From: Bacteroidota bacterium
Lineage (GTDB): Bacteria; Bacteroidota; Bacteroidia; JABEUT01
Assembly (NCBI GenBank): GCA_013289395.1
Contig: JABCZY010000011.1
Span: forward strand, 1 to 34,456
Direction of reading: 5' to 3'
DNA length: 34,456 nt
In this document: positions 2,506-34,456 of the stretch, in pieces
How positions within the stretch are numbered: the first letter of the stretch is position 1
How the letters are laid out: every line of letters starts with the position of its first letter
Program-made: the position numbers and the translations under genes
Notes under the pieces: model-generated
What the model saw: only the letters and a program-made list of their open reading frames with translations
What the model was told of the DNA's origin: nothing
The model's database searches: none

Positions 2506-2953
2506 TTGGTAGTTTACCCATTACTTCTTCTGCAAGGGCAGCAAAATCATCAGCGCCCTGCTTCATGTATTTATCGTATTCCTGTTTCGACCATATTTCA
2601 ATTCTGTTCGAGAAACCGAACAGCACCGATGTTTTATCAACCCCTGCAAACTGCATAAGTGGCTTAGGCAACAGCAAACGGCCTGAACTATCAAGCTCAA
2701 CTTCGGTCGCACCGTTATTGAATTTTCTTACGAACTCACGGTTCTTTTGAACGTACAGGTTCAGTGAATTAAGGCGGGCAGTTTCCTTATCCCACTCCTT
2801 ACGCGGCCACAGGTTAAGCTGTTTTTCAAGCCCGCGGTTAACAACAAATCGCTTTTGCTCTTTAGCAGGCAATTGCTTCTTGAACCCGACAGGAAGCATG
2901 AGCCTTCCCTTCTCGTCCAATTTGCATTCGTATTCCCCGATCAAAGCTGCCAC
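2480..2953 (-). CDS. mraZ: Transcriptional regulator MraZ
   Basis: A 157-residue protein with two SpoVT-AbrB-like swapped-hairpin halves, recognisable by CKLDEKGRLMLP near the N-terminus and ELDSSGRLLLP in the second half. MraZ proteins form ring-shaped oligomers and bind repeated TGGGN boxes upstream of their own operon, usually repressing the division/cell-wall cluster. It is the first gene of that cluster here, and a matching operator lies upstream at 2995-3019, so autoregulation can be inferred from sequence. Confidence 0.97.
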   Translation of the reverse strand: MAALIGEYECKLDEKGRLMLPVGFKKQLPAKEQKRFVVNRGLEKQLNLWPRKEWDKETARLNSLNLYVQKNREFVRKFNNGATEVELDSSGRLLLPKPLMQFAGVDKTSVLFGFSNRIEIWSKQEYDKYMKQGADDFAALAEEVMGKLPNDSIGDVS

Positions 2954-2976
2954 AATAGGTTGTTTTTATTGAGTTG

Positions 2977-2984
2977 TAAAAGTA
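2977..2984 (-). promoter_or_regulatory. Possible -7 promoter box of the mraZ operon
   Basis: On the minus strand this reads TACTTTTA, one mismatch from the Bacteroidota -7 consensus TAnnTTTG. It lies just downstream of the MraZ operator and 23 nt before the mraZ ATG, so a bound MraZ ring would sit immediately upstream of or over the promoter. Confidence 0.4.
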
Positions 2985-2994
2985 GTGAAAAAAT

Positions 2995-3019
2995 TCCCAC
3001 ATTTTACCACATTTTCCCA
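2995..3019 (-). promoter_or_regulatory. MraZ operator, three TGGGN-type repeats
   Basis: Read on the minus strand, the sites are TGGGA, TGGTA and TGGGA, each separated by the same 5-nt spacer AAATG, giving an exact 10-bp period (boxes at 3015-3019, 3005-3009 and 2995-2999). This matches the known MraZ-binding arrangement TGGGN(N5)TGGGN(N5)TGGGN. It ends 42 nt upstream of the mraZ start. Confidence 0.9.
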
Positions 3020-3215
3020 CTTTGTTGAAAACTTTAATTAATCGTTAAATTTTCGTGAACAGGAAATGTTTTTATGTCGCCCAATTGATAAGGAATTGAA
3101 GGGAAACCGGGCCATGAAAACGTTATTAACTATTCGGTGGGAGAAAAATGAAAATGTTCAAAAGAACAAGACGATTTTTAGTAAAAACCTGAAAAAAGGC
3201 CGAGTAAAATCAGAA

Positions 3216-3255
3216 CGGGAAAATCTGCAGGGGGAAAATGTGGGAAACCGTGTAA
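3216..3255 (+). promoter_or_regulatory. Second MraZ-box-like cluster
   Basis: On the plus strand GGGGA (3231-3235), spacer AAATG, TGGGA (3241-3245), spacer AACCG, then a weak TGTAA (3251-3255) keep the 10-bp period. A CGGGA at 3216-3220 lies 15 bp before the first. The AAATG spacer is identical to that in the bona fide operator upstream of mraZ. It sits 36 nt upstream of the -7 box of the acyltransferase gene. Only one box is a perfect TGGGN, so the assignment is tentative. Confidence 0.4.
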
Positions 3256-3290
3256 GAAGCAATGGTAATTTTCTGCCAAAAACATTTTCT

Positions 3291-3298
3291 TATCTTTG
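3291..3298 (+). promoter_or_regulatory. -7 promoter box (TAnnTTTG) of the acyltransferase cassette
   Basis: The sequence is TATCTTTG, an exact match to the Bacteroidota sigma-ABfr -7 consensus, 24 nt before the ATG at 3323. Its final TTG is in frame with the gene and could be mistaken for a start codon; promoter position argues for the ATG at 3323. Confidence 0.65.
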
Positions 3299-3322
3299 TT
3301 CAAAGCAGATTCAAGAGTGGCT

Positions 3323-4174
3323 ATGTTGCAGATAAATGTAGATGAGTTACTACGAACTAAAGCTTCAAAAGCTTACAGGTTCATTCCACGTTTCCTTATC
3401 AATTATGTTCGAAGAACTATTCATGAAGGCGAGATAAATAAATTTCTTGCCGAGAATGAAAATACCAGAGGGATTGCTTTTGTAGATGGAGCGCTGGCCA
3501 GTATGGGCGCCAATGTATCTATTGAAGGAATTGAAAACATCCCGAAAACGGGTGGATACATTTTTGCGGCTAATCACCCGCTTGGCGGGCTCGATGGCCT
3601 AGCTATTATAAACTCTATTGCTAAGGTTCGAACCGATATAAAATTCTTTGTGAATGAAATATTGCTCAACCTTAAAAACCTTGATGACATTCTTGTTCCC
3701 GTTAACATAAACGGCAATAGTACCCGTCCGATGTTGGAATTGGTTGATAACATATACAAGTCTGATAATGCTATTCCTATTTTTCCCGCGGGGCTTGTAT
3801 CACGCCGCCAGCCCGATAAAAGTATTAAAGACCTTCGCTGGAAAAAAAGCTTTATAACCAAAGCCAAGGACTACAAAAAAGATATTATTCCAATATGGGT
3901 TGAAGGCAGAAACTCAAACTTCTTCTACAACTTTGCCATGTGGCGAAAAAGGCTCGGAATCAAGGTGAATATTGAAATGTTCTTTTTACCGGATGAGATG
4001 TTTGGCCAGCGAAACAAGCGCATTGTGCTCCATTTTGGAAAACCCGTTTCTTTCACTACCTTTATGGAATGTAACAACGATGCAAAAATGGCCATTATGT
4101 TCCAGGATGCATTATATGATAAAAAAGAAAAAATAGTAAACGAGACTTTATTTACCAGCCCCATAAAATTATAA
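3323..4174 (+). CDS. PlsC-like lysophospholipid/aminolipid O-acyltransferase (GlsA/OlsA-like)
   Basis: A 283-residue membrane-associated acyltransferase of the LPLAT/PlsC superfamily. The catalytic NHxxxxD motif is NHPLGGLD at residues 84-91, and a substrate-binding motif FPAGLVSRR follows at about 153-161. Members with this NHPLGG-D signature include OlsA/GlsA-type enzymes that add the second, ester-linked acyl chain to lyso-ornithine or lyso-glycine lipids. It lies 21 nt upstream of an OlsB/GlsB-like N-acyltransferase, the partner that makes the lyso-lipid, which supports that role over ordinary phosphatidic acid synthesis. The ATG at 3323 is preferred to an in-frame TTG at 3296, because that TTG belongs to the promoter box. 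Confidence 0.8.
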   Translation: MLQINVDELLRTKASKAYRFIPRFLINYVRRTIHEGEINKFLAENENTRGIAFVDGALASMGANVSIEGIENIPKTGGYIFAANHPLGGLDGLAIINSIAKVRTDIKFFVNEILLNLKNLDDILVPVNINGNSTRPMLELVDNIYKSDNAIPIFPAGLVSRRQPDKSIKDLRWKKSFITKAKDYKKDIIPIWVEGRNSNFFYNFAMWRKRLGIKVNIEMFFLPDEMFGQRNKRIVLHFGKPVSFTTFMECNNDAKMAIMFQDALYDKKEKIVNETLFTSPIKL

Positions 4175-18893: not shown

Positions 18894-19658
18894 ATGGAAA
18901 AGATAACCTTAATAACAGGAGCAACTGCAGGATTCGGAGAAGCAATAGCACATGAATTTGCTGCGCATAAGTATAACATAATTATTACTGGAAGAAGAGC
19001 TGAGAGGCTTGAAAAGGTAAAGGGTGAATTGGAAAAGAAACATGGTGTTAAGGTAATGGCCCTGAACTTTGACGTACGCAAACTGGAAGATGTAAAAAAG
19101 AATATTGCATCATTACCCGCTGAATGGCAAAATATAGATGTGTTAGTTAACAACGCCGGATTGGCAAGTGGGTTAAATAATATTCAGGAAGGCGATACCG
19201 AAGATTGGGAAAAGATGATAGATACAAATATTAAAGGCTTGTTATATGTTACCCGTACCGTTGCACCCCTGATGATAAAGAATAAGAAAGGGCATATTTT
19301 CAATATTGGTTCAGTTGCCGGTAAGGAAGTTTATGCAAACGGCAATGTGTATTGCGCCACCAAACATGCGGTTGATGCACTTACCAAGGCTACACGCATT
19401 GATCTGTTACAGCATGGCATTCGTGTCACAGGCATATGCCCCGGTATGGCTGAAACAGAATTTTCTATTGTCCGCTACCATGGCGATGAAGCTAAAGCAA
19501 AGAATGTATACAAAGGCATTGATGCATTAACGGCGCAAGATATTGCCGAAGTAATATATTTTGCAGCATCGCGCCCGGCGCATGTGAACATAAGCGATGT
19601 AGTTATTACACCGACACAACAGGCGACTGCTACTTACGTAGTGAGAAGGGAGGCTTAA
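18894..19658 (+). CDS. Short-chain dehydrogenase/reductase, YdfG-like
   Basis: A 254-residue classical SDR. The cofactor loop is TGATAGFG (8-15) with GRR at 33-35 indicating NADP(H) preference, the NNAG motif is at 86-89, and the catalytic residues are Ser140, Tyr153 and Lys157 (YCATK). The overall pattern, including the end [20 protein letters not shown], resembles the YdfG group that oxidises 3-hydroxy acids such as L-allo-threonine and serine; the exact substrate is inferred. The ATG at 18894 is chosen because it puts the cofactor loop at the usual distance and lies after the promoter box. Its stop overlaps that of the converging fumC. Confidence 0.9.
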
Positions 19659-21046
19659 AGAGAACCTATCATCTTCTTCGGGTCAACCCACTGATCGAAC
19701 TGCTCGTTGGTAACAAGGTTCAGATCTAATGCAGCCTGGCGGAGTGTTTTGTTTTCCTTATGTGCTTTCTTGGCAATTTTGGCAGCATTCTCATAACCAA
19801 TATGTGTATTGAGTGCAGTAACCAACATCAATGAATTTTCAAGGTTCTTGTTAATATCAGCAAGGTTTGGTTCTATACCAACAGCACAATGTTCATTGAA
19901 TGAATTACATGCATCGCCGATCAACCTCGCAGAGTTAAGCAGGTTGAAAATGATTACCGGTTTAAATACATTCAATTCAAAATGGCCATTCATACCTCCT
20001 ACACTTATTGCCACATCATTACCCACTACCTGTGCGGCAACCATTGTCATAGCCTCACACTGAGTAGGGTTTACTTTGCCAGGCATAATTGACGAGCCCG
20101 GTTCATTCTCAGGAATTAATATCTCACCTATTCCGCAACGAGGACCCGATGCAAGTAAGCGAACATCATTTGCAATTTTCATTAACGATACCGCTAATTG
20201 TTTTAGTGCACCCGATGTTTCCACCATTGCATCATGTGCCGCTAATGATTCGTATTTGTTCTCTGCCGTTACAAATGGTAACCCTGATACCTTGGAAATT
20301 TTCTCTGCAACCAATACTGCATATCCCTTAGGAGTATTTAATCCTGTACCCACTGCAGAGCCGCCCAATGCCAATTCTGAAAGGTGTGCAAGAGTGTTTT
20401 TCAATGCTCTCAGTCCATGATCTAATTGCGATACATAACCGGAAAATTCCTGACCTAATGTTAACGGAGTTGCATCCATTAAGTGAGTGCGACCAATCTT
20501 AACAATATCCTTAAATGCTTTTGCCTTTTTATCCAGTGTATCACGCAATAACTGAACATTAGGGATAGTGTTTTCTACTATCAACTTATATGCTGCAATG
20601 TGCATAGCTGTCGGGAATGTATCGTTCGATGATTGTGATTTATTCACATCGTCGTTCGGGTGAATGGCTTTCTTTTCATCCATTAAACTACCGCCCAACA
20701 ATACATGTGCACGGTTAGCCACTACCTCGTTCACATTCATGTTCGATTGTGTGCCGGAGCCTGTTTGCCAAACAACTAATGGGAATTCATTATCAAGTTT
20801 TCCGGCTAAAATTTCATCACACACTTTTCCAATAATATCACATTTCTCTTTTGGCAATACACCTAATTCAGTATTGGCTTGTGCTGCCGCTTTTTTCAAA
20901 ATAGCAAAAGCATAAATCACTTCAATAGGCATTTTGTTTCCGCCTATTTTAAAATTGTTGCGTGAACGCTCAGTTTGTGCGCCCCATAATTTGTCAGCAG
21001 GTATCTGCACTGGGCCCATTGTGTCCTTTTCAGTTCTGAATTCCAT
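19655..21046 (-). CDS. fumC: Fumarate hydratase class II
   Basis: Iron-independent fumarase of the TCA cycle, interconverting fumarate and L-malate. The signature [11 protein letters not shown] begins at residue 317, close to the position in E. coli FumC, with [33 protein letters not shown] and GGSAVGTG also present. The start at 21046 ([11 protein letters not shown]) gives 463 residues and a family-like N-terminus; an ATG at 21070 would add eight residues. It is last in a minus-strand operon after the GIY-YIG gene. The stop shares TTAA with the converging SDR stop. Confidence 0.97.
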
Positions 21047-21084
21047 AGCTTTTGGTTTTAAGGTTTCCATGTTATTTTAAAATT

Positions 21085-21891
21085 TCAATTATTATTAAGT
21101 AGGCAAGCATTTTTCCCAAACTTCTCTTTAAATAGCACTTCTTTCTCAATAATTTCTTTAGGTGTAACTGTCTTAGGAAGTACCATTAAAATTGAAAAGT
21201 TGAAATTAAGTGAATATTTTTCATCTTCATAAACCAATCTTTTCAAAGTCTTATTTCCACCATGTCCATTGCTTCTAATATACGCGCTCCATCTTCCCCA
21301 AATTCCATCCTTTCCGTATGCAGCTCCCACATAAAGCATTCCAGTTTTTGAATCACTTATCAGATAAATCCCATTAATAATCGATAGTACATTTTTCCAG
21401 TCACTATATTGATTATTTACAATTTCTTTTAGCTCCCTATATTTAAGAGTAAAACCTGCATAATCTGTAAATTGCTGATAGTGAAGCCCATGTTGGATTT
21501 CTATTACTTCTTTCTCAATTTTAATTGATTGATGCCAAGCTCTCGCAGAAGATGGAACACCCCAATTTATTATAACCCGTTCCTTCAAGTCTTCAAAACC
21601 TGATTCTTCTCTTGTTTCGTAATGAAATCTTTTTCCAACTTTTTTTTTACTCAAAACCCTATATACCCCTATGAATCTTGACCTCATCCCATCCTCCCCT
21701 AAAAATGAAACTACATAATCAACTTTACCAAAAACATCTTGTGCCTGATTATTCTGATAATTGGTGAATGTTTTAGGGTCCTCACGATAATCATTATATA
21801 AGTCAAGTCCATGCTCTTTATGCCTTGCAAGTTTGATTCTTGATTTCTGATTGAGGCCCCTATTGAATAATAACTCCTGTATTGTTATCAT
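21085..21891 (-). CDS. GIY-YIG nuclease family protein
   Basis: A 268-residue protein with a C-terminal GIY-YIG domain: GIY at 174-176 (NGIYLISD), YVG at 187-189, the catalytic Arg at about 200 (WGRW), a likely catalytic Glu near 251 and a terminal Asn-rich NACLLNNN. The first ~165 residues form a separate domain that I do not recognise, with a VDYVVSFLGEDG segment and a GVYRV strand; it may determine target or partner. It lies 2 nt after the arsC-like stop and shortly before fumC. Its composition is visibly more AT- and Lys-rich than the metabolic neighbours, suggesting later acquisition. Role is unknown. Confidence 0.8.
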   Translation of the reverse strand: MITIQELLFNRGLNQKSRIKLARHKEHGLDLYNDYREDPKTFTNYQNNQAQDVFGKVDYVVSFLGEDGMRSRFIGVYRVLSKKKVGKRFHYETREESGFEDLKERVIINWGVPSSARAWHQSIKIEKEVIEIQHGLHYQQFTDYAGFTLKYRELKEIVNNQYSDWKNVLSIINGIYLISDSKTGMLYVGAAYGKDGIWGRWSAYIRSNGHGGNKTLKRLVYEDEKYSLNFNFSILMVLPKTVTPKEIIEKEVLFKEKFGKNACLLNNN

Positions 21892-21893
21892 TC

Positions 21894-22247
21894 TTATTTC
21901 AATAAAGTAATTACGTTTTGCGGTGGCCTGCCAATAATGGCCTTGTTTCCTTCAATGGCAATAGGCCTTTCAATAAGTATAGGGTTCTTGCTCATTACCT
22001 TTATCCATTCTGCATCGCTAAACTTCTTGTTCTTAAATTTCTTTTCGAAGAATGGTTCTTTTTTACGTAATAAATCGGCTGGCTTCAGACCAAGCTTCTT
22101 TAATAAATCTTTTAGTTCTTTTTCGGTGGGCGGAGTTTTAAGGTATTCCACTATTTCAGGTTCAACTCCTTTTTCTTCCAGTAAACATAATGCTTCTCTG
22201 CACTTCGAACAACGCGGGTTATAATATAAAGTAACCTTCTTTTTCAT
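21894..22247 (-). CDS. ArsC/Spx family thioredoxin-fold reductase-like protein
   Basis: A 117-residue protein of the glutaredoxin-type arsenate reductase family (YfgD/ArsC-like). The active-site loop is NPRCSKCREAL with Cys13 and Cys16. The C-terminal ERPIAIEGNKAIIGRPP motif carries the conserved arginine that binds the oxyanion in ArsC. The CxxC arrangement differs from classic ArsC, which has one catalytic cysteine here, so a general thiol role is possible. No arsenic genes are nearby; it sits 6 nt after pdxA and 2 nt before the GIY-YIG gene. Confidence 0.87.
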   Translation of the reverse strand: MKKKVTLYYNPRCSKCREALCLLEEKGVEPEIVEYLKTPPTEKELKDLLKKLGLKPADLLRKKEPFFEKKFKNKKFSDAEWIKVMSKNPILIERPIAIEGNKAIIGRPPQNVITLLK

Positions 22248-22253
22248 TGTTAT

Positions 22254-23348
22254 TTATTCTCCGTCCTGTTGGGCAGGTACTGATACTCTTAATCTATTTG
22301 CAACAAGTTTCTGGTATTCTTTTCTTGTCCTTACCAGGTCGCATGCCATAAACACTGCATGGCGGAATGATGCTTCCGATGCTTTGTTCTTTCCTGCAAT
22401 ATCATACGCTGTACCGTGGTCAGGTGAGGTGCGGATAACCGAAATACCTGCGGTAAAATTAACACCGGTTTCAAATGCCATATATTTAAATGGAATCAGT
22501 CCCTGGTCGTGATACATGGCAAGCACAGCATCAAATTTCTGGAATGCATGGTTACCAAAAAAGCCATCTGCCGGATACGGACCATATGCCAATAAGCCAT
22601 CCTTTTGCGCCTTATTAATTGCAGGTTTAATTATTTCCTGTTCTTCCTTACCTAGTGTACCACCATCGCCTGCGTGTGGGTTAAGGCCTAGTATTGCAAT
22701 GCGTGGTTTTTCAATACTAAAATCTTCCTTCAGGGTTTTATTCAGTATACTTAGTTTCTTCAATATCTTCTCAACCGAAATAGAAGCAGCCACTTCTGAA
22801 ACAGGAATATGCTCAGTCAATAAAGCCACTCTCAATTCACCTGATATAAGCATCATGACTGAATTGCCTTTCCCAAAACGTTGGTCTAAGTAACCGGTAT
22901 GTCCTGCAAAAGGAAATTCTTCGGAATGTGTATTATGTTTATTGATGGGCGCTGTAACCAATGCTTCAATCTTTCCTCTTTCTAATGCTTCGCAAGCGGT
23001 AGTTAACGATTTCACTGCATACAATCCACCAGCAGGAGTTTCTTTTCCCAACTCCATTGGAACTTCTTCGTTGTAACAATTATACAGATTGAACTTTCGT
23101 GCAGGAATATTATCGAGACTGTTGATCATATTATAATTGAAGTGCTCAGCCTGCAATACTCTCCGGTGATGTGCAATTGTTTTACCTGAACTGAAAAGTA
23201 CAGGTGTACATATTTCAAGCATGGTCGGATCAGAGAAAGTTTTGATAATAACCTCCAACCCTATTCCATTTACATCGCCCTGCGAAATACCAACTATTAC
23301 CGGCTTGCGGGTAGGTAATGGCTGAGGTGTAACAGGGGTTTCTAACAT
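22254..23348 (-). CDS. pdxA: 4-hydroxythreonine-4-phosphate dehydrogenase PdxA
   Basis: NAD-dependent oxidation step of the DXP-dependent pyridoxal 5'-phosphate pathway. At 364 residues it is slightly longer than usual because of a short N-terminal extension. The three metal-binding histidines are His179 (TEHIP), His224 (NPHAGDGG) and His279 (YHDQG), with GHTGYLDQRF at 149-158 and TSPDHGTAYDIAGKN at about 306-320. It lies 5 nt after the dCMP deaminase gene and 6 nt before the arsC-like gene, in one operon. Confidence 0.97.
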   Translation of the reverse strand: MLETPVTPQPLPTRKPVIVGISQGDVNGIGLEVIIKTFSDPTMLEICTPVLFSSGKTIAHHRRVLQAEHFNYNMINSLDNIPARKFNLYNCYNEEVPMELGKETPAGGLYAVKSLTTACEALERGKIEALVTAPINKHNTHSEEFPFAGHTGYLDQRFGKGNSVMMLISGELRVALLTEHIPVSEVAASISVEKILKKLSILNKTLKEDFSIEKPRIAILGLNPHAGDGGTLGKEEQEIIKPAINKAQKDGLLAYGPYPADGFFGNHAFQKFDAVLAMYHDQGLIPFKYMAFETGVNFTAGISVIRTSPDHGTAYDIAGKNKASEASFRHAVFMACDLVRTRKEYQKLVANRLRVSVPAQQDGE

Positions 23349-23353
23349 ATAGC

Positions 23354-23827
23354 TTATAATTTAACAGCTTCAGGTAATGTCATACGATGTACCGTAACAC
23401 CAAATTTTCTTAAAAAGTCAACTCCTTCGTCAGATGGAATTCCCTTGTAGTCAGCATATGAATTAAGATAATATACATGCTTTATACCGGCTGTAAATAT
23501 CATACGTGCGCAGGCAAGGCAAGGTGAAAGGGTAACATACATAGTAGAACCTTCAATACTTGCTTTATTCTTGGCTGCATATATAATAGCATTCTGTTCG
23601 GCATGAATAGCCAATGAACATCCACCTTTACTGTCGCGTGGGCATCCATGTTCAGCCCATTCTTCATCACAGTTATGTGTTCCGGCGGGCGGGCCATTAT
23701 AACCAAGCGATATAATGCGGGTGTCTTTACACATTACCGCTCCCACATGCATTTTAACACAGTGCGAACGTTGAGCCAGCTTTACGGCTAACTCCATATA
23801 TATTTCATCAAAACTCGGGCGATCCAT
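23354..23827 (-). CDS. dCMP deaminase family protein (ComEB-like)
   Basis: Zinc-dependent cytidine/deoxycytidylate deaminase, likely converting dCMP to dUMP for thymidylate synthesis. The zinc and catalytic motifs are HAE at 75-77 and PCLAC at 102-106, with an extra Cys/His cluster (HNCDEEW at 51-57, GCPRDSKGGC at 61-70) typical of dCMP deaminases. The ATG at 23827 gives the usual ~157 residues and lies 21 nt after a promoter box. The frame stays open for 53 more codons upstream, but those would read through the promoter and the palindromic repeats. First gene of the operon with pdxA. Confidence 0.92.
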   Translation of the reverse strand: MDRPSFDEIYMELAVKLAQRSHCVKMHVGAVMCKDTRIISLGYNGPPAGTHNCDEEWAEHGCPRDSKGGCSLAIHAEQNAIIYAAKNKASIEGSTMYVTLSPCLACARMIFTAGIKHVYYLNSYADYKGIPSDEGVDFLRKFGVTVHRMTLPEAVKL

Positions 23828-23848
23828 AGGGTATATTTCTAAGCCGTC

Positions 23849-23856
23849 CAAAAATA
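23849..23856 (-). promoter_or_regulatory. -7 promoter box of the dCMP deaminase-pdxA operon
   Basis: Minus strand TATTTTTG, exact TAnnTTTG, 21 nt before the ATG at 23827. It decides the start codon in favour of 23827 over upstream in-frame ATGs. Confidence 0.6.
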
Positions 23857-23879
23857 CAATTAAATATGGTAAATGACAC

Positions 23880-23999
23880 AACCTCTCAAAGGTTTGAATC
23901 CTTGTCATGGCTAAAGCCCGATTTCCTGTTGCATTCCGTTTAACCCCAGACTTAAGTCTGGGGTTATTATAATAGATATTAGTCAAGGACTTTAGTCCT
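23880..23999. repeat. REP-like cluster of spaced palindromes
   Basis: Three inverted repeats lie in the 229-bp intergenic gap between the dCMP deaminase and the APC transporter. The first is GGCT-AA-AGCC at 23909-23918. The second is a perfect 26-bp palindrome at 23941-23966, with arms rich in C (CCCCAGACT...). The third is AGGACT-TT-AGTCCT at 23986-23999. All three centres fit CTnnAG (CTAAAG at 23911, CTTAAG at 23951, CTTTAG at 23990) and are 40 and 39 nt apart. A smaller AACCT/AGGTT stem lies at 23880-23894. There is no T-run, so it is not a simple terminator. It resembles Bacteroidota REP elements mobilised in trans by RAYT transposases; no such transposase is in the window. Confidence 0.65.
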
Positions 24000-24027
24000 G
24001 ATCTATTAAATTTTATAAAGTAACCGT

Positions 24028-24035
24028 TACATTTG
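24028..24035 (+). promoter_or_regulatory. -7 promoter box of the APC transporter gene
   Basis: TACATTTG, exact TAnnTTTG, 21 nt before the ATG at 24057. The TTG at 24033-24035 is in frame with the gene and is part of the box, so it is not taken as the start. Confidence 0.6.
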
Positions 24036-24056
24036 CAACAGCGCTATATATATGTA

Positions 24057-25403
24057 ATGAGCAAAACTGCCTCTCCTTCAGCCCGTTTATTAAAAACCTT
24101 TTCGCTTGCGGCTGTTATATTCCTTACCGTTTCGGGTGGGCCATACGGACTTGAGCCACTAACACAATATGCCGGAAAGAATGGAGCGCTTTTACTTTTA
24201 TTACTTGTTCCGCTTTTGTGGGACCTGCCAAGTATTTTAATGGTATTGGAACTAAACAGTCTTATGCCCGTAAATGGTGGTTATTACAAATGGGTAGATA
24301 GGGCACTTGGCAAGCGATGGGCCTTTTTTGAAGGATGGTGGACCTGGCTTTATTCGTTTACCGACCTGGCCATTTACCCGGTGCTATTCGTTACCTATGT
24401 AGGCTATTTTTTTCCGGTCATTCAGGAATGGAAAGTGCCTATTATGCTTGTTATTATATGGGGCAGTGCCGGCTTAAATATATTGGGAATAGTACCTGTG
24501 GGAAGGGTTTCGCTTATACTTGGCGCAATTATAATCATACCTTTTCTTGCGCTTTTCGGAACTGCTTTTTTTAGTTCTTCCATACATTTTACTATGCCAA
24601 CGCCCAGCCTTAACGGAATTGGGTTTTCAGCTATTGGCATGGCGTTATATACGGTAATGTGGAATTTTCTGGGCTGGGACAATACAACTACCTATGCAGG
24701 TGAGGTTGATAAACCTGTCCGGTCTTATATCATTTCAACATTCATAGCCTTTGCGCTGGTAATATTTTTATATGTTGTCACAACATACATCACCCAAAAC
24801 TCCGGTGTTAATTTTGCTGAATTGAATGATAAAATGTACCCCTTACTCGGGCAAAAAATTGGTGGCCAATGGTTGGCAGCAATGCTTGCTGTAGGTGGTA
24901 TGGCAAGTGCTTTGGGAATATTCTCAGCAGTTATGCTATCTATATCACGCATTCCAAAATCAATGGCTGACGACAAATTATTACCCAAATGGTTTGCTAT
25001 TGAGCATAAACGGCTCAAAACTCCATATGTGTCCATATTGATCACCTCAATAGTTGTAAGTTTTATGGCATTAAAATCGTTCACTGAATTAATAGTGATT
25101 GACGTAATATTATACGGTGCGGGAATAGCACTCGAATTTATATCATTGGTTGTGCTACGCATAAAAGAACCGGATGCCCCCCGCCCTTTTAAAATCCCAC
25201 TAAACACATTTCTACTTACTTTACTAATGATATTACCAATAGGTGTATATGCTGTTGCACTTATAGGAGAATTAAGCAATCCTGAAGGTTCAAACACCCA
25301 GATATATTTTGCAATTGGAGCATTGCTTACAGCACCTATAGCATGGCTTGTTGTTAAATGGAGTAGTAAAGAGAATAGCACTACTGACACACCGAATATT
25401 TAA
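24057..25403 (+). CDS. APC family amino acid/polyamine permease
   Basis: A 448-residue inner-membrane protein with about twelve hydrophobic helices. The opening segment (LAAVIFLTVSGGPYGLEPL) carries the glycine-rich unwound helix 1 of the amino acid-polyamine-organocation superfamily, and PVNGGYYKWVDRALGKRW after helix 2 is a typical APC loop motif. Relatives import amino acids or amines, often by proton symport; the substrate cannot be told here. The ATG at 24057 is supported by the promoter box just upstream. It stands alone between the palindrome cluster and the peroxiredoxin gene. Confidence 0.9.
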   Translation: MSKTASPSARLLKTFSLAAVIFLTVSGGPYGLEPLTQYAGKNGALLLLLLVPLLWDLPSILMVLELNSLMPVNGGYYKWVDRALGKRWAFFEGWWTWLYSFTDLAIYPVLFVTYVGYFFPVIQEWKVPIMLVIIWGSAGLNILGIVPVGRVSLILGAIIIIPFLALFGTAFFSSSIHFTMPTPSLNGIGFSAIGMALYTVMWNFLGWDNTTTYAGEVDKPVRSYIISTFIAFALVIFLYVVTTYITQNSGVNFAELNDKMYPLLGQKIGGQWLAAMLAVGGMASALGIFSAVMLSISRIPKSMADDKLLPKWFAIEHKRLKTPYVSILITSIVVSFMALKSFTELIVIDVILYGAGIALEFISLVVLRIKEPDAPRPFKIPLNTFLLTLLMILPIGVYAVALIGELSNPEGSNTQIYFAIGALLTAPIAWLVVKWSSKENSTTDTPNI

Positions 25404-25425
25404 TTCCTTCGCATCAGGAAAATTA

Positions 25426-25433
25426 TACCTTTG
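25426..25433 (+). promoter_or_regulatory. -7 promoter box of the peroxiredoxin gene
   Basis: TACCTTTG, exact TAnnTTTG, 48 nt before the ATG at 25482, separating this gene transcriptionally from the upstream transporter. Confidence 0.6.
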
Positions 25434-25481
25434 CCTCCACTATTCAGCAATTAATTTATAACCCTAAATACAATAAACAAT

Positions 25482-25949
25482 ATGTCATTAGTTGGAAAAC
25501 AAGCCCCGAATTTTGAACTCCCTGACCAGGACAAGAATATGGTTAAATTAGATTCATTCAAAGGCAAGAACGTTGTTCTGCTTTTCTTCCCTGCAGCATT
25601 TACAGGTGTATGTACTAAGGAAATGTGCGAAAGCCGTGATTCACTTTCTTATTTTAATGGAATGAATGCACAGGTAATTGGCGTATCTGTTGATATGCCT
25701 TTTACATTAGCTAAGTTCAAAGAATTGAATCAATTGAATTTCCCTCTTCTTTCAGACTTTAACAAAGAAGCAATTACTGCTTTCGGTTGCAAATGTGATA
25801 CTTGGGTGATGAACCTGCATGGTGTTGCTAAGCGTTCTTCATTTGTAATTGATAAAGACGGCGTAGTTCGTTTTGAACAGATACTTGAAGTAGCAGGCGA
25901 TTACCCTGATTTTGCAGGTATTAAGAAAACACTGGAAGGATTGAAATAA
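25482..25949 (+). CDS. Peroxiredoxin (AhpE/Bcp-like)
   Basis: A 155-residue thiol peroxidase that reduces H2O2 and organic hydroperoxides in the cytoplasm. The active site is PAAFTGVC with peroxidatic Cys44, and a second cysteine at Cys49 has the five-residue spacing of atypical 2-Cys Bcp enzymes. An additional CKC pair at 103-105 is less usual and could act in resolution or metal binding. Length and the DKDGVVRFEQI segment fit the AhpE/Bcp group. It is monocistronic, with its own promoter box and a strong terminator. Confidence 0.93.
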   Translation: MSLVGKQAPNFELPDQDKNMVKLDSFKGKNVVLLFFPAAFTGVCTKEMCESRDSLSYFNGMNAQVIGVSVDMPFTLAKFKELNQLNFPLLSDFNKEAITAFGCKCDTWVMNLHGVAKRSSFVIDKDGVVRFEQILEVAGDYPDFAGIKKTLEGLK

Positions 25950-25970
25950 TTTTTTCAGGTTTTATTAAAT

Positions 25971-26003
25971 GGCGGCTATCTGAAAAAGATGCCGCCTTTT
26001 TTT
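25971..26003 (+). terminator. Rho-independent terminator of the peroxiredoxin gene
   Basis: Stem GGCGGC / GCCGCC (25971-25976 and 25991-25996) is extended inward by ATC/GAT after a one-base bulge, with an A-rich loop and a run of seven T. The T-run reaches into the stop codon of the converging cardiolipin synthase gene. Confidence 0.9.
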
Positions 26004-27183
26004 ATTCCTTTGAAAGCACCTTAAATTCAAACCAAAACAGGAAGCGGGTAAATTGAAATGAAACCCAACAAAGGAATTTTTCCCATACATTCATTTTCTC
26101 CAGGTATTCAGAGTATGTTACGTGGTGACATTGCGCTATTACTTTTTCCAGTTCATCTTTAACTACCTGGCAAAAAGCAGCATCGAACACCTCAATATTT
26201 GTTTCCACACTGCTATAATGGCTAAGATGATTTATATTATATGAGCCTATGGAAGCCCATTTATCGTCAACCAGGTTAATCTTTCCATGCAGTATGGTTT
26301 TATCCCATTCATAAATTTCCATTCCATGTCTGAACATCCATGCATATAAATACATAGTTGCACGCTTGGCAAGTTGCACGTCCGATATTCCGGGCACTAT
26401 TATCTTCACCTTTACTTTTCTTTTCAGTGCCCTCTTCAAAATTCTGAGTGCCTGATGCCCGGGCAAAAAATAACTTGCCATAAAGGTTACCGATACATGA
26501 GAATGCCTTATCGCATTCCGTAAACTTTTCGATATCTTATCTTTACCGAGTAACCAATCATTCTGGCTCACCTTAACAGGTATTGTTTCAGCATTCACTG
26601 TAGCTGGCGTAAGGGTTTGTAATAGTTTTTTTGTCCGCATTCTATATCCCTTGCCTTTCCAAAGTGCAAGGCAAACAGTTTTAATTTGAGTGCAAACAGG
26701 GCCTTTTATATATACCGCATAATCGAGCCAGGGGGTTTCCGGGCCATCAACGCGGTATTTATCTTCTACATTTATTCCTCCAATAAGCGATTCAGCCTCG
26801 TCACCCAAAATTATTTTATGATGCAATCTCCTTCCAAATCGCATACGGTAGTTTCGAAAAAGAGGTGAAAATTTCCTAAATTGAATACCACTCTGCTCTA
26901 TTTCTTTTATGGCGTTATTGCTTAAACTGTTTGAACCAAATGCATCGACCAGTAAATTCACTTCAACACCCCTTTTTACGGCATCTTTCAATGCATCGAT
27001 CACTAACCTTCCGGTAGAGTCATCAATAAATATATAGGTCTGAAAATGAATGACTTTCTTACTGTTTTGTATTACGGAAAGTGCCCGCTCAAAAAAATCA
27101 TTCCCACTTTTAACAAGCACCACCTCATCGGCCTGTGAAAAGCTGTTCCCTTTACGCTTTCTATATGTCCTGCTACCGCTCAA
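26002..27183 (-). CDS. Phospholipase D-like cardiolipin synthase (ClsB-like)
   Basis: A 393-residue enzyme with two HKD phosphodiesterase motifs, HHKIILGD at about 121-128 (followed by GG) and HGKINLVD in the second half (followed by SIGSYN). Such enzymes join two phosphatidylglycerols, or phosphatidylglycerol and phosphatidylethanolamine, into cardiolipin. There is no pair of N-terminal membrane helices, which is like ClsB and unlike ClsA. Basic N- and C-termini and a Trp/Phe-rich tail suggest membrane association. It is divergent from the SprB-repeat gene, with 241 bp between. Confidence 0.88.
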   Translation of the reverse strand: MSGSRTYRKRKGNSFSQADEVVLVKSGNDFFERALSVIQNSKKVIHFQTYIFIDDSTGRLVIDALKDAVKRGVEVNLLVDAFGSNSLSNNAIKEIEQSGIQFRKFSPLFRNYRMRFGRRLHHKIILGDEAESLIGGINVEDKYRVDGPETPWLDYAVYIKGPVCTQIKTVCLALWKGKGYRMRTKKLLQTLTPATVNAETIPVKVSQNDWLLGKDKISKSLRNAIRHSHVSVTFMASYFLPGHQALRILKRALKRKVKVKIIVPGISDVQLAKRATMYLYAWMFRHGMEIYEWDKTILHGKINLVDDKWASIGSYNINHLSHYSSVETNIEVFDAAFCQVVKDELEKVIAQCHHVTYSEYLEKMNVWEKFLCWVSFQFTRFLFWFEFKVLSKE

Positions 27184-27424
27184 ATTGTTGTTAAAACAGG
27201 GTTATACCTTATAAATTTCAGATGTGCGCTAAATTACAAATAAGGTTTAATAAGACCCTTAAATCACCAAAAAAGGGTGGTTTTTCACGAATTCCTTGTG
27301 TATAAGTTCAAATCTTTGTTCACAAAACGCGGTTTTAATCCATGCATATTTGCTTAATATTTAGTATATTGTATGCCAAATACTAATAGCAGAGCATTAA
27401 TCTAAAGCGAATTTTGAGGAAATA
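27184..27424. other. Intergenic region upstream of the SprB-repeat gene
   Basis: 241 bp between divergent genes, AT-rich. A near-consensus promoter box CATATTTG lies at 27345-27352 (one mismatch to TAnnTTTG), 73 nt before the ATG at 27425. No convincing box was found for the minus-strand gene, and no RNA gene or strong hairpin was seen. Confidence 0.4.
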
Positions 27425-30400
27425 ATGACATTTTTTTACAGGAAAATATTTCTACAGGCTATTGTTCTGGCTGGTTTTCTTTCAACAAATATTGTTGCTC
27501 AGCGAACTCAGTCAGCTGTAAAAAATGTATCTGCCCCCATAAAAAAGGGCCTTGAATGGAATGTTTCTCCTTTCGATAATAAAGTGTTTATAGAAAACAA
27601 GGGGCAGTTTGATATCAGTGATATAAGCAAAGACAAAGTTCTCTATTCAGCCACCATAGGCAGTGTTCAATTATATTTTACCTCGCATAGTATTCTGTAC
27701 AGCTATAATGAATATAGTAAAGATGCTACAGAAAAACCTATTGCACGTACACTAGTTGCCGACTGGAAAAATGCTAACAATAACGTAACTATAAGTGCCG
27801 AACATGGCTTAAGTTACGCCTATCATTACCCGAGCGGAAAAAGTAATACTATAATTGCCGGCATATACAGGAAAATAATTTATCGCAATTTGTATCCCGG
27901 TATTGATGTTGAATTTTACTTTCCCGATAAAAAAGAAGGTTTTGAGTATGATATAGTTGTTCATCCGGGAGCAGATATTTCGCAGGTAAAGCTTGCCTAT
28001 GGTAATGCAACTAATCCGATAATAGATTCGAAAGGAAATGTACTTACCAATACAGTGGTTGGAGAAATAACTGACCACACTCCTTCTGCTACGGCAGCTG
28101 ATGGCGGAACCGTTAAAGTGAAATATATAGTGAATGGTAATGAAGAAGGACTTCAATTTACCGGTACGTACGACAAAACAAAAACCATAACAATAGACCC
28201 TTGGACTACCAACCCTAAGTTTACCGGCACGTGTAACAAAGCATACGACCTTGATTATGATGTTAATGGTAACGTATATGTATACGGAGGTTATACTACA
28301 TTTCAGCTAGTAAAGCTTAATAGTGCCGGAACTATACAATGGGCATTTCCGGCTGGTAGTATTGACGGAGCCATATATGGTGGCCTGGCAGTAGACCCTA
28401 AAAGCGGAACATCGTATTTAATAGAAGGTGCCCGTGCGGCAGGTGTACGAATACTGAAGGTAAATTCTGCTGGAATACTTGTCACTACTTCAGGACCTGA
28501 TGCGAACATGAATGAAATGTGGCGGCCTCTTTTCAATACTTGTAATAATAACCTGGTAATTGGTGCCGGTGGAACCAAAGCCGGAGCTAACACACAGGCC
28601 ACTTTGGTTGATACTTCGTTTACAACCTTTACAAATGTTAACGTGCTTGGTGCAACTGCTGCAGGCCATAGCATGGTGCTGGCAACAATGGATCCATCAG
28701 GAGCTTCCTGTTACATGGCTGTGGCAAAATCTGCCGTAATTGACCCTAAAAAATTCAATAATGTATTGGTAAAGCTTCCCTTGCCTAGTCTTAGCCCAAA
28801 TTTATTTTCTGTTCCCGATGGCTATAAGTTTGTTGAGCTTGCAAGTATTAATTACGTAGGTAATGGAATTGGCGCTACAAATGGAATGAATGGAATGTCA
28901 GCAAGTTTGAATTGGCTATACCTGTATGACGGTGGCGAACTAAGAAGATTCGATAAAAAAACAGGCGCACTTAAAGATAGCGTAAAGGTTACAAGTGATC
29001 CGTATAGTTGGGGTGGTTTAGCTGCTGATATATGCGACAACATTTATGTAGGTTCAAAAAAATGGATAAGTGTTTACAATTCCTCATTGATCTTGGCTGA
29101 CACTATAACATTGCCTGATACTGTTTACGATGTAAAGGTTGATGCAAGCCGCCAGGTAGTTCTTGCATGCGGAAAAGGATTTGTACGTTCGGTTAATGTT
29201 CCCTTCTCTCCTCTTTCTATAGCCGGCACAAATGCTACCTGTTCATGTAATGGAATTGCCACAGCTAACTTATGTGGTGGTGCCGATACCAGCAATGTTA
29301 CGTATTTATGGAGCAATGGAAAAACCACACAAACCATATCGGGCTTATGTGGCGGGAAATATAAAGTAACTGTTACGCTAGGTGGATGTGTGCCTGTAAA
29401 GTATATTGATTCGATTAACATAATTCAACCAACACCACTGGTAGCAACCATAACTTCAAAAGCAAATGTAAAATGTAATGGCGGTGTTGGTAATGCCACT
29501 GTTACTGTTACAGGTGGCTCAAAGCCGTACAAATATTCATGGACTCCTTCGGGCGGAACAAATGCATTAGCTGACTCTTTATTTGCAGGAAGCTATACGG
29601 TTACTGTTACCGATTCAAATAAATGTACAGCAACAACTACAGTTCTAATAACCCAGCCGCCTGTTTTTACAGATACAGCCACCGGTAATTATGCGCATTG
29701 TGGCAAAAGCGACGGAAAAGCAATTGCAACTGTAACAGGTGGTGCAAGCCCTTATGTTTACGCATGGTCACCTGGTGGACAAACAAAAGCCAGTGCTACC
29801 AATTTAACGGCAGGTACTTATGTTTCTACTGTTACCGATGCAAATGGATGTACGGTGTCATCTGTTATCATAATTCCTGACTCGGGAGTATCTGCTTCAA
29901 TAAGCGGAATAACCGCTGAAAAATGTTTCGGACAAAGTACGGGTTCTGCTACAGTTAGTATGACCGGTGGAAAACCAGGCTACACCTATTCATGGTCGCC
30001 AGGCGGGCAAACAAATGCCACTGCTGTAAATCTCTCATCAGTATTATATATTGCCAGTGTTAAAGATGCTAACGGATGTATAGCCTCAGATACGGTTACC
30101 ATATTACAGCCACCAAAGCTTGTAATAAATATGGAAGCGGTTAATGTAGGCTGCACCGGTGGAAGTACCGGTAGTGTTACAGCTGCAACAAGTGGAGGAA
30201 CATCTCCTTATACATATTCGTGGAGCAATGGTGGTACCGATTCAACTATTTCAGGGCTGGATAGTGGAAGATATTCTGTTACTGTAATTGATATAAACGG
30301 ATGTTCGGCAAAAGATACTTCTACTATTACACAACCGGCAAAAGGATTGACAACGGTCGTAGTAAGCTCTAAGGGGGTTTCCTGCAATGGTGGAAAAAAT

Positions 30401-32890
30401 GGAACTGCAACAGATAGTTCCAGTGGAGGCACCGCCCCATATAGTATTAACTGGGGAATACCGGGAGATACAACAGCAACAGCAGACAGTCTTTCTGCAG
30501 GAACATATGTAGTTACTGTTACCGATGCAAATGGTTGCTCTGCCACTACCAGTATAGCCATTGCACAGCCATCTGCAGCACTTGCCGATACTATTATAAG
30601 TACAAATAATAAATGCTTTGGAGATAGTAATGGTACTGCATTTGTCATACCATCAGGTGGTACAAAGCCCTATACCTATTTATGGAGTCCTGTAGCAAGC
30701 ACAACTGATACCATTGTGAAACTTCCAGCAGGCACATATAACGTAAGTATAACCGACTCAAACAAATGTAATGGTGCGGGCTCTGTTACTATAACGCAAC
30801 CGGCTCACTTAATAATTGGAATAACAACAACCCCGACACCTTGCAATAAAAACAACGGAAGTGCTACAGCAATTGTAAGCGGAGAGCCATATACGTTTTC
30901 ATGGAAACCAGGATCAAATACCTCAGCGAAAGATTCAGGCCTTGCAGCAGGTACATATACGGTAACAGTTACCGATACCAGCGGTTGCAAAACAGATACT
31001 GCAGCAATAGTACCGCATAGTATTCCACCTAAGGTTACTGCAAGTTCTATTCCTGCTACTTGCGATAGTTCGAATGGATCGGCCATTGCCCATGCAACGG
31101 GCGGAGTTGGATCTTATACCTATTCATGGAAACCCGGTGTACAAACCGGTGATACGGCTACAAGAATCGGCCCCGGTATTTATACAGTTACAGTAAGCGA
31201 CTCAAATGGTTGCAAAGATACCGCCATTACCATTGTAGGCGATTCGGGTGTTAGTACAAGCTTTGGTAATATCAGCGACATAAGCTGCTTTGGCTTAACC
31301 AATGGAAGCGCTACAGCAAATATGGTAGGAGGAACCAGCCCATTCAATTATTCATGGAGTGATGGGCAAACTACATCAACAGCAAACAATCTTAGTGTTG
31401 GAACATATACCGTAATTATTACCGATGTACATAACTGTACAGTAACAGATACTATTAAAATAACACAGCCAGCATTGCTGACAGCCGCCATTCCGCAAGC
31501 CAACATTAAAAATGTAAGTTGCTTTGGAGATAGTAACGGAAGTGCCTTCCCTAATGTTGCAGGTGGCACCAAGCCATACTCATACGTATGGACTGACGGC
31601 GAGAAAACAGATACAGCAAATGCTCTTCCTGCCGGAACATATACGGTAACTGTTACTGATAAGAATTTGTGTGTAACTTCTGCAACAGCAATTATAACAC
31701 AGCCATTGCCACTTACAGTAACTACCAGTACCACTGCAGCTACCTGCGGAAATAATGGTAGTGCAACAGGTGCAGCGCATGGAGGTACAACACCTTATTC
31801 GTACACATGGGGAGGTGGCTTTGGTGCCGGAGTAACTATTTCAGCCATTGGCCCTGGCTTATATACTGTAACTGCAACAGACTCTAATGGATGTACCGCA
31901 ACCGATACTGCTAGGGTAATACACTCAGGGCAGACAGCAAATATTTCAGCCAGCCATAATGTAAAATGTTTTGGTGGTAATAATGGTAGTGCAACAGTAA
32001 GTGTAATTGGTGGAGATACATTACTTTACGGATACCAGTGGACGGGCGGGCAAACCAACGCAACTGCTTCAAACCTTGTTGCAGGTGTTGATACTGTTTT
32101 TGTAACATATATTGCTAATGGTTGTACCGATACTGTTTACGATACCATTACACAACCTTCAAAACTGAATGTTACGTATAACGATACTGTAAAATGCAAC
32201 AGCGCTACGGCAAATGTACAGGTAAATGCCACCGGCGGTGTACCGGGCTATACCTATTCATGGAATGGAACTACAGGCACAAATGCCAATGTAAGTATAC
32301 CTGGTGGTCCATATACACTTGTAGTTACCGATAAAAATGGCTGTACCGATACGCTCAAAACGACCCTTAATGTTTCCATCCTGAGTGCATTCTTTAGGCC
32401 AGAACCCGATACCATATTAGGCGGAGAATTTATCTACTTCAAAAATTTAAGTGCAGGAGCCAATAGTGCCTGGTGGAGTTTTGGCAACGGTAATTATTCC
32501 GACAGCCTTGACCCTTATCAACAATATGGTACAGCGGGGAAGTACGTCGTTTATTTATATGTAACAAATGCGAAAGGATGTCGTGATTCTTTTCCGCAAA
32601 CTGTTTATGTAATTGAGGATCTTTTCGTGCCTAATGTGTTTACACCAAACGGAGATGGAATTAATGATGCGTTCCATGTATCGGCAGGAAACATGAAAGA
32701 ATATGCCCTTTATATTTATAACCGTTGGGGTGAAAAAATATTTGAATCATACTCACCTAATATTGACTGGACAGGAACAAGTGATGCCGGTGTACCATAC
32801 CCTGACGGAACATATTATTACATTCTGAAAGCTACCGATTTCGAAAACAAAGTATACCAGCTACACGGATACTTAGAGCTTATCCGATAG
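27425..32890 (+). CDS. Giant SprB-repeat adhesin with T9SS type B sorting domain
   Basis: An 1821-residue cell-surface or secreted protein. A signal peptide (about 1-26, ending VAQ) is followed by a domain opening with IENKGQF (56-62) and running to TIDPWTTNP, like the DUF7948 domain of such proteins. Residues ~260-590 are beta-propeller-like. Fourteen SprB-type repeats of ~75 residues span 593-1651; each has a Cys-Asn/Phe-Gly start, GG-x-x-PY-x-Y-x-W, GTYTVTVTD-x-NGC and an ITQP end. A PKD-like domain (about 1652-1733) precedes the gliding-motility C-terminal domain (1734-1821; FTPNGDGINDAF, YNRWGEKIFES, PDGTYYY). Type B tails are exported by the type IX secretion system. Role: adhesion or gliding is inferred from SprB of Flavobacterium; many homologues are simply adhesins. 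Confidence 0.93.
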   Translation: MTFFYRKIFLQAIVLAGFLSTNIVAQRTQSAVKNVSAPIKKGLEWNVSPFDNKVFIENKGQFDISDISKDKVLYSATIGSVQLYFTSHSILYSYNEYSKDATEKPIARTLVADWKNANNNVTISAEHGLSYAYHYPSGKSNTIIAGIYRKIIYRNLYPGIDVEFYFPDKKEGFEYDIVVHPGADISQVKLAYGNATNPIIDSKGNVLTNTVVGEITDHTPSATAADGGTVKVKYIVNGNEEGLQFTGTYDKTKTITIDPWTTNPKFTGTCNKAYDLDYDVNGNVYVYGGYTTFQLVKLNSAGTIQWAFPAGSIDGAIYGGLAVDPKSGTSYLIEGARAAGVRILKVNSAGILVTTSGPDANMNEMWRPLFNTCNNNLVIGAGGTKAGANTQATLVDTSFTTFTNVNVLGATAAGHSMVLATMDPSGASCYMAVAKSAVIDPKKFNNVLVKLPLPSLSPNLFSVPDGYKFVELASINYVGNGIGATNGMNGMSASLNWLYLYDGGELRRFDKKTGALKDSVKVTSDPYSWGGLAADICDNIYVGSKKWISVYNSSLILADTITLPDTVYDVKVDASRQVVLACGKGFVRSVNVPFSPLSIAGTNATCSCNGIATANLCGGADTSNVTYLWSNGKTTQTISGLCGGKYKVTVTLGGCVPVKYIDSINIIQPTPLVATITSKANVKCNGGVGNATVTVTGGSKPYKYSWTPSGGTNALADSLFAGSYTVTVTDSNKCTATTTVLITQPPVFTDTATGNYAHCGKSDGKAIATVTGGASPYVYAWSPGGQTKASATNLTAGTYVSTVTDANGCTVSSVIIIPDSGVSASISGITAEKCFGQSTGSATVSMTGGKPGYTYSWSPGGQTNATAVNLSSVLYIASVKDANGCIASDTVTILQPPKLVINMEAVNVGCTGGSTGSVTAATSGGTSPYTYSWSNGGTDSTISGLDSGRYSVTVIDINGCSAKDTSTITQPAKGLTTVVVSSKGVSCNGGKNGTATDSSSGGTAPYSINWGIPGDTTATADSLSAGTYVVTVTDANGCSATTSIAIAQPSAALADTIISTNNKCFGDSNGTAFVIPSGGTKPYTYLWSPVASTTDTIVKLPAGTYNVSITDSNKCNGAGSVTITQPAHLIIGITTTPTPCNKNNGSATAIVSGEPYTFSWKPGSNTSAKDSGLAAGTYTVTVTDTSGCKTDTAAIVPHSIPPKVTASSIPATCDSSNGSAIAHATGGVGSYTYSWKPGVQTGDTATRIGPGIYTVTVSDSNGCKDTAITIVGDSGVSTSFGNISDISCFGLTNGSATANMVGGTSPFNYSWSDGQTTSTANNLSVGTYTVIITDVHNCTVTDTIKITQPALLTAAIPQANIKNVSCFGDSNGSAFPNVAGGTKPYSYVWTDGEKTDTANALPAGTYTVTVTDKNLCVTSATAIITQPLPLTVTTSTTAATCGNNGSATGAAHGGTTPYSYTWGGGFGAGVTISAIGPGLYTVTATDSNGCTATDTARVIHSGQTANISASHNVKCFGGNNGSATVSVIGGDTLLYGYQWTGGQTNATASNLVAGVDTVFVTYIANGCTDTVYDTITQPSKLNVTYNDTVKCNSATANVQVNATGGVPGYTYSWNGTTGTNANVSIPGGPYTLVVTDKNGCTDTLKTTLNVSILSAFFRPEPDTILGGEFIYFKNLSAGANSAWWSFGNGNYSDSLDPYQQYGTAGKYVVYLYVTNAKGCRDSFPQTVYVIEDLFVPNVFTPNGDGINDAFHVSAGNMKEYALYIYNRWGEKIFESYSPNIDWTGTSDAGVPYPDGTYYYILKATDFENKVYQLHGYLELIR
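29201..32377 (+). repeat. Fourteen SprB-type protein repeats
   Basis: Tandem coding units averaging about 227 nt (75-76 residues). They are clearly homologous at protein level, but diverged at DNA level: adjacent copies do not share long identical runs. The first copy is the most divergent (GTNATCSCNG start, LGGC in place of DxNGC). Some copies end in PDSG, PHS or GDSG in place of the usual TQP linker, alternating in parts of the array. Confidence 0.85.
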
Positions 32891-32893
32891 CTC

Positions 32894-33892
32894 CTACTTT
32901 ACAACTTCAATCAGTTTTTGTGCTTTATTTCCTTTATCAGTTATGGTACATATATATGTACCCGGAGCCATACCTACAGTATTTAAGGTAATTGTGTTTT
33001 TACCTTTTTCACTTATGATACTTTTACTCAGGTACAATTGTTTCCCGGAAATGTCGGTTAATTCAATTTCTACTTCCTCAGCATTGCCCGACATAAAACT
33101 CACTGCAAATGATCCGTTTGTAGGATTTGGATATATATTCAAATTTGAAATGTTATTAATTTCATTGACACCTAAAATAAGAGGCAACAATGTTACCTGC
33201 TTAATTGCATCAACTTTATTGCCCCATGTATCAGCCAGTCGCAGATCAAGAAGATAGGTACCACTAGTCAAGCCATGCGTGTTCCAGTTTGCAAGCAGGC
33301 TATTACTCACTTCATTCGTATCAATACTGGTTACAGGTGTCCATCCTGTATCTCCATTCAATTGGTAGAACAATTGCCAGTTCTTAAAATACATCCAGTT
33401 ACTGGTAGGCCCCCGATGAATCCATGCCGAGCCATTTATTGGAGCAATAGAGTCAGCAAATAAATTACCGGGCTGATTTATATTATCAAACCATGCATCG
33501 CTGCCGCTCAAGGCCTGTGGGTCGACAGGCACCGTACTTTGAACGACTATTAAAAGAGAATTATCTATTGCTTCTGCAATTCCTGTTCCACCTACCGTTG
33601 AATACCCGAATATAAAAAGGCTGCTCTTTTCACTTCTCACATAGCTTGTTACAGTAGCCCCGTTTGCAACAATGGTTGAGGTATCACTTGACCAATGATA
33701 ACCACCTGAACCATCAACCACATACGAATTGCCATACATTTTCGATGCATTTTCTGTTCCTATTTCACCTGCTATGCAACCACTTACATTTATAATTGAT
33801 TTATGAAAAACATAAAAACTCCAGGTTTGTACAGTACAATTGGTAAGCGTAAATGTACGGTCCGATAATGACTCACTTGTTATTACCGGTAC
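32894..33892 (-). CDS. T9SS type A sorting domain protein, 5'-truncated
   Basis: The frame is open from 33892 (after an in-frame TAG at 33893-33895) to the stop at 32894. The only ATG is at 33739, giving 281 residues with no signal peptide. Coding signal plainly continues upstream of that ATG (NCTVQTWSFYVFH, INVSGCIAGEIGTENASK), in the style of a parallel beta-helix protein. The C-terminal ~80 residues are a classic type A T9SS sorting domain (LNIYPNPTNGSF, ITLNTVGMAPGTYICTI, KLIEVVK), which requires a Sec signal to be used. Its absence means the N-terminal part is missing or displaced. It converges on the SprB-repeat gene with 3 nt between stops. Confidence 0.72.
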   Translation of the reverse strand, partial: VPVITSESLSDRTFTLTNCTVQTWSFYVFHKSIINVSGCIAGEIGTENASKMYGNSYVVDGSGGYHWSSDTSTIVANGATVTSYVRSEKSSLFIFGYSTVGGTGIAEAIDNSLLIVVQSTVPVDPQALSGSDAWFDNINQPGNLFADSIAPINGSAWIHRGPTSNWMYFKNWQLFYQLNGDTGWTPVTSIDTNEVSNSLLANWNTHGLTSGTYLLDLRLADTWGNKVDAIKQVTLLPLILGVNEINNISNLNIYPNPTNGSFAVSFMSGNAEEVEIELTDISGKQLYLSKSIISEKGKNTITLNTVGMAPGTYICTITDKGNKAQKLIEVVK

Positions 33893-34456
33893 CTATACAC
33901 ATACAGGGCCTATCATAGTTGTGCTTAATGGTGTATTGATTGTAAAACATGCCAATATGACCAATATTGGTGATATGTATGCGCTGCAAAAAGGCAAGAT
34001 CATCATTGATTCATCTACCGTTTCATTTCCACAAAATTATTTTTACCAGCGCTCGCTTGTGTTGGTAGGCAAAGCAAGTGCCACTATAAGTAACACAACC
34101 TTAAGCTATGGGGGATTCTCTCACAACCTTTCAGTATATGATACAGCACAAATAACTTTTAAAAATGTTACTCAACCCGATTGGATGACAACTGGAGTGG
34201 GTAGCCATGCGTCGTTTACTATAAACGGAACTAACCAGGCAGGCGAGATAATTATATCAGATTATTGCAATATAAATATTAAGAATGCAACATCTGTTTT
34301 ATTATGGCACCAGTTTCCTGACTCTTCGGTTGTTAACTGGTCTTTCGGTAAGCACGATACTGCATACGGATATAAGTTCAACAAAAGCCTTACAGGAATA
34401 AAAGGAGTTGAATACAATGTGTCGGCAGATTCGTGTTATAAAATCATGTGGGGAAT
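33816..34456 (+). CDS. Beta-helix-like surface protein segment, lacking its start and running off the window
   Basis: Plus-strand frame open from 33816 (after a TAA at 33813-33815) to the window edge, about 213 codons. The product from about 33860 (SDNDSLVITGTYTHTG, GVLIVKHANMTNIGDMY, KGKIIIDSSTVSF, ASATISNTTLSYGG, SVYDTAQITFKNV) has the short repeating valine/isoleucine strands and Asn turns of a right-handed beta-helix. No ATG with a signal peptide begins it: the nearest start-like codon is a TTG at 33840, and the ATG at 33803 belongs to another frame that stops after 21 codons. It therefore appears to be the inner part of a gene whose 5' end is missing here, head to head with the minus-strand C-terminal segment. 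Confidence 0.65.
33862..33889. repeat. Imperfect inverted repeat at the head-to-head junction
   Basis: Arms of 11 nt at 33862-33872 (CCGATAATGAC) and 33879-33889, matching in 9 of 11 positions with a 6-nt spacer. It lies where plausible coding signal on the two strands meets. It could be an inversion or recombination site, a trace of an amplification or assembly chimera, or chance. Confidence 0.4.

Follow-up and report, generated by a model that had tools for sequence, protein, structure and literature searches.

Phase-variable inversions of Bacteroidota surface loci are one described counterpart of the locus analysed here, the likeness being an inverted segment inside a surface-protein gene. 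A switchable DNA segment requires matching inverted sites. A second counterpart is found among the chimeras formed during multiple displacement amplification (MDA) with phi29. More than 85% of these are inverted, mostly joining sequences less than 10 kb apart through 2-21 nt of complementarity (Lasken and Stockwell 2007, PMC1855051); in another study more than 95% of the overlaps measured 3-13 nt and the distances were mostly below 5 kb (PMC5372508). Our locus shares with the inverted MDA chimeras its inverted orientation, a spacing within a few kb and the presence of several such joins in one assembly, and probably also a short complementary overlap. It differs in the manner of its detection: the published chimeras were seen in raw reads mapped to their own reference, whereas ours was seen in an assembled contig through comparison with relatives. 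A third likeness, to type A sorted proteins of the T9SS (TIGR04183 / PF18962), lies in the C-terminal sorting domain and in the signal-peptide-like N-terminus displayed by relatives; it concerns only the nature of the native gene and has no bearing on the inverted join.

One gene in two pieces

The stretch of DNA analysed (the window, 34,456 nt) is the entire contig C11 of a 52%-complete Bacteroidota assembly of 112 contigs (GCA_013289395.1, hereafter G000), so its right edge, position 34456, is a contig end. Two coding segments lie head to head next to this end. The minus-strand segment (32894-33868) is the C-terminal part of a broken gene, running from LSDRTFTLTNCTVQTW into a T9SS type A sorting domain that scores well above the cut-offs of both PF18962 (Por_Secre_tail; 56.5 bits against 27, E 3.5e-15) and TIGR04183 (50.7 bits against 23, E 1.3e-13). 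The plus-strand segment (33867-34454) is the N-terminal part of the mature product of the same gene; it is inverted, runs off the contig end and lacks the signal peptide and the first ~90 residues.

The assignment of both segments to one gene rests on separate searches of 100 relatives with a minus-strand query (32894-33889) and a plus-strand query (33816-34454). In nine genomes, six of them congeneric and three belonging to other families, both queries hit one and the same ORF, 635-713 codons long, on a single strand and with the N part first; in a tenth relative from a separate collection (L008), one ORF again covers both parts. Within the six same-genus genomes, the C part is 60-72% identical to these single intact ORFs, and the N part is 59-74% identical to the sequence upstream of it. 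The two parts are separated by 47 residues in 6/6 same-genus relatives and by 46-48 in the others counted, which places the native sites 723-741 nt apart (~730), with one outlier at 837 (G061). The inverted form was seen in none of the ten relatives searched with both parts, nor did any relative having both parts carry two intact genes head to head. In G000 each part is present in single copy, and the two do not overlap. The preliminary description of this DNA had proposed that one gene supplied both pieces, its C-terminal part and an inner part, brought together by an inverted join, and had called for comparison with an uninterrupted homologue; that comparison, in which ten relatives have the N part, the gap and the C part in one ORF, supports the proposal well.

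The native gene is best read as present in single copy and about 660 codons long, with a putative signal peptide, a beta-strand-rich region and a T9SS type A tail. The ORFs of relatives open with a hydrophobic, signal-like stretch, as judged by eye, which the fragment in the window does not have. A structure model of an intact relative (mean pLDDT 54.5) is rich in beta-strands and of reasonable confidence only at residues about 88-250. Because Foldseek comparisons with this model gave low TM-scores and an rmsd near 18, the beta-helix label is not confirmed; it is not needed either.

Downstream of the gene lies a convergent native neighbour at 27425-32890 on the plus strand, encoding an SprB-repeat protein with a T9SS type B (CHU_C) tail (Pfam/NCBIfam; the convergent ORF is also present in L003 and L004). 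It holds the matching place in relatives G008 and G004, where the intact gene is flanked upstream by a TonB-dependent receptor gene and downstream by the convergent SprB-repeat gene. The protein at 27425-32890 has 1821 residues, with 12 SprB repeat matches, a DUF7948 domain and the type B tail. In G000 the TonB-dependent receptor gene, which natively lies just upstream of the broken gene, was located at 1501-3577 of another contig (C85, L048), cut off by the contig end. Since C85 ends within this gene, the native 5' end of the broken gene is lost in a gap of the assembly.

The junction

Protein and codon alignments to relatives place the chimeric junction at 33866-33870 (TAATG); the plus-strand sequence across it is GTCCGATAATGACTCA. 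The minus frame runs without interruption from 33892 to its stop at 32894, and its homology to relatives passes the ATG at 33739 to reach the LSDR codons (L codon, 33866-33868). Because homology extends this far beyond it, the ATG is not the native start; an open frame without signal peptide continuing to 33892, as first described, is borne out. For the plus frame, a start at about 33860 without signal peptide had been reported. The signal peptide is indeed missing, but the frame is open from 33816 and homology sets in no earlier than 33867-33869, the Asn codon of (P)ND-S-L-V-I-T-G. An ATG at 33803, considered earlier as a possible start, is antisense to the C part and starts nothing.

These homology limits, at the LSDR and Asn codons, make the natural sequences of the two strands meet at 33866-33870, within the interval of about 33860-33890 first noted. 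The C part explains the sequence to 33868, perhaps to 33870, and the N part explains it from 33867, perhaps from 33866. An overlap of AA (33867-33868) is certain, and it would extend to the five nucleotides TAATG if the native codons were CCT and CCA. The size of 2-5 nt depends on these two native proline codons, which are absent from the assembly.

The two halves had been said to end exactly at an 11-nt imperfect inverted repeat. The repeat exists (33862-33889; arms 33862-33872, CCGATAATGAC, and 33879-33889, GTTATTACCGG, 9/11 matching), but it is not the join. An equally good inverted repeat occurs in 6/230 random 45-nt stretches of the window, and the right arm is ordinary coding sequence for V-I-T-G. 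The repeat is therefore regarded as incidental and was rejected as the cause of the join.

Similar joins elsewhere in the assembly

Flips of orientation were sought by setting some 588 kb of G000 contigs, C11 among them and together roughly a third of the assembly, against about 1.6 Mb of G008. Four flips were present in 243 kb of comparable G000 sequence: one in the window, two in contig C57 and one in contig C38. A bulk-metagenome relative used as control (G006) had none in 87 kb, a small sample that is not significant alone. All four flips, on three contigs, are no more than about 2 kb away from a contig end. Weak flags at L066 and L139, which stem from repeated or multidomain proteins, were put aside.

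At the left end of C57 (L113, 1-1900), a 2-hydroxyacid dehydrogenase gene (Pfam) is joined in inverted orientation twice in succession, near 112 and 677, and reads forwards, backwards and forwards again within 700 bp. The jumps are of ~267 and ~920 nt, and a join overlap of about 4 nt (GATG) appears by comparison with G008. In C38 (L054, 1-2193), residues 1-342 of an M17 aminopeptidase (Pfam) are joined in a false fusion ORF to the C-terminus of an adjacent HemL-like gene, which we take to be glutamate-1-semialdehyde aminomutase (HemL), recognised from sequence without a family search. The aminopeptidase is broken between NADAE and GR, the jump is ~2.25 kb, and the HemL-like N part is found next to the fusion in inverted orientation, cut off by the contig end; no clear overlap was resolved at this join. 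The HemL-like fragment also has an apparent single-base frameshift at about 203, perhaps an amplification or sequencing error. A reading of the C38 locus as paralogues sharing a common T9SS tail was rejected, its translation showing unrelated enzymes and a fused ORF. The joins in C57 and C38 are of the same type as the join in the window and very probably artefacts like it.

The three contig ends are alike in one further respect. From the 47-residue spacing of the same-genus relatives, C11 stops 139 bp short of the expected start of the native C part, that is, of the return point at which an inverted copy should begin; the corresponding distances are 153 bp in C57 and 141 bp in C38.

A probable amplification chimera and its rivals

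It is very probable that the feature is a chimera of an ordinary T9SS surface-protein gene at a contig end, generated, as we infer, by DNA amplification. Of the two causes offered in the preliminary description, a chimeric amplification join is strongly favoured by the geometry of the join, by C57 and C38 and by the relatives. The inverted orientation of the joined segments and their native spacing (~730 nt in the window; ~267, ~920 and ~2250 nt elsewhere) are those of MDA chimeras, and like joins affect unrelated genes of the same assembly at the ends of C57 and C38.

One could picture the event as follows. During MDA, a growing antisense strand would arrive at the LSDR codons; its 3' end would be displaced and, pairing over about 2-5 nt, would anneal to another displaced strand of like polarity close by, at a site in the gene some 730 nt upstream, after which synthesis would go on in the opposite direction. 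The product would contain, in order, the reverse complement of the C part, the N part, the middle and another copy of the C part in inverted orientation; the contig ends 139 bp ahead of this copy.

Four of the same-genus relatives are "BW..Nextera" MAGs, a naming that matches the Barre Woods soil study, in which sorted pools of 100 cells were subjected to MDA and made into Nextera libraries, and the reads were assembled with SPAdes (k 25, 55, 95), 200 bp being trimmed off every contig end (PMC7065516). By analogy with these relatives, G000 is presumably itself an amplified, cell-sorted MAG. The smallest k-mer of that study, 25 (PMC7065516), is far larger than an overlap of 2-5 nt, which argues that the joined molecule predates assembly. 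Trimming of 200 bp from the ends would roughly explain why the contigs stop before the return point; this account is suggestive only, since the offsets of 139-153 bp do not match one k-mer exactly and fit a 200-bp trim only roughly.

The other cause offered at first was a genuine, possibly phase-variable, internal inversion by a site-specific recombinase, turning the surface protein off. The product is a secreted T9SS protein and the inverted join is truly present, as this idea would have it. At the native sites of eight relatives, however, the longest exact inverted match is 5-7 nt, which is chance level, and none of the ten relatives has the inverted form. Nor was a recombinase found among the neighbours scanned (19655-32890), whose genes are phospholipase D-like, redoxin, permease, deaminase, PdxA, ArsC-like and fumarase-type. 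In the first two respects, and in the third as far as the scanned neighbours go, the locus departs from the phase-variable loci of Bacteroidota. Equivalent joins moreover disrupt metabolic genes in C57 and C38, to which phase variation of a surface protein does not apply. The suggestion is thus unsupported, and we regard such an inversion as very improbable. Hardly any more credit can be given to a segment within the T9SS surface-protein gene that flips without conventional inverted repeats.

Microhomology-mediated repair could have inverted or rearranged the DNA for real, a single time, in the lineage sampled, and it too would leave short microhomology behind. Such an event is highly unlikely, since roughly one third of a single genome yielded four inverted switches on three contigs, every one of them within about 2 kb of the end of its contig, and since the contigs stop at much the same distance from their return points. 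The head-to-head layout is all that a pair of distinct genes, divergent or paralogous and each deprived of its N-terminus, would account for. Such a pair is extremely unlikely, as both pieces match one ORF in every relative having them and are non-overlapping and single-copy in G000.

Implications

The join in the window is most likely an artefact made in the laboratory rather than a sign of phase variation, with whole-genome amplification before sequencing as its likely origin. Its significance is that of a warning: chimeras at the contig ends of G000 mimic inversions and give rise to spurious fusion ORFs and spurious head-to-head genes. Anything else that looks odd within about 2 kb of the contig ends of G000, and possibly of its amplified relatives, should be compared with relatives before any biological reading is placed on it.
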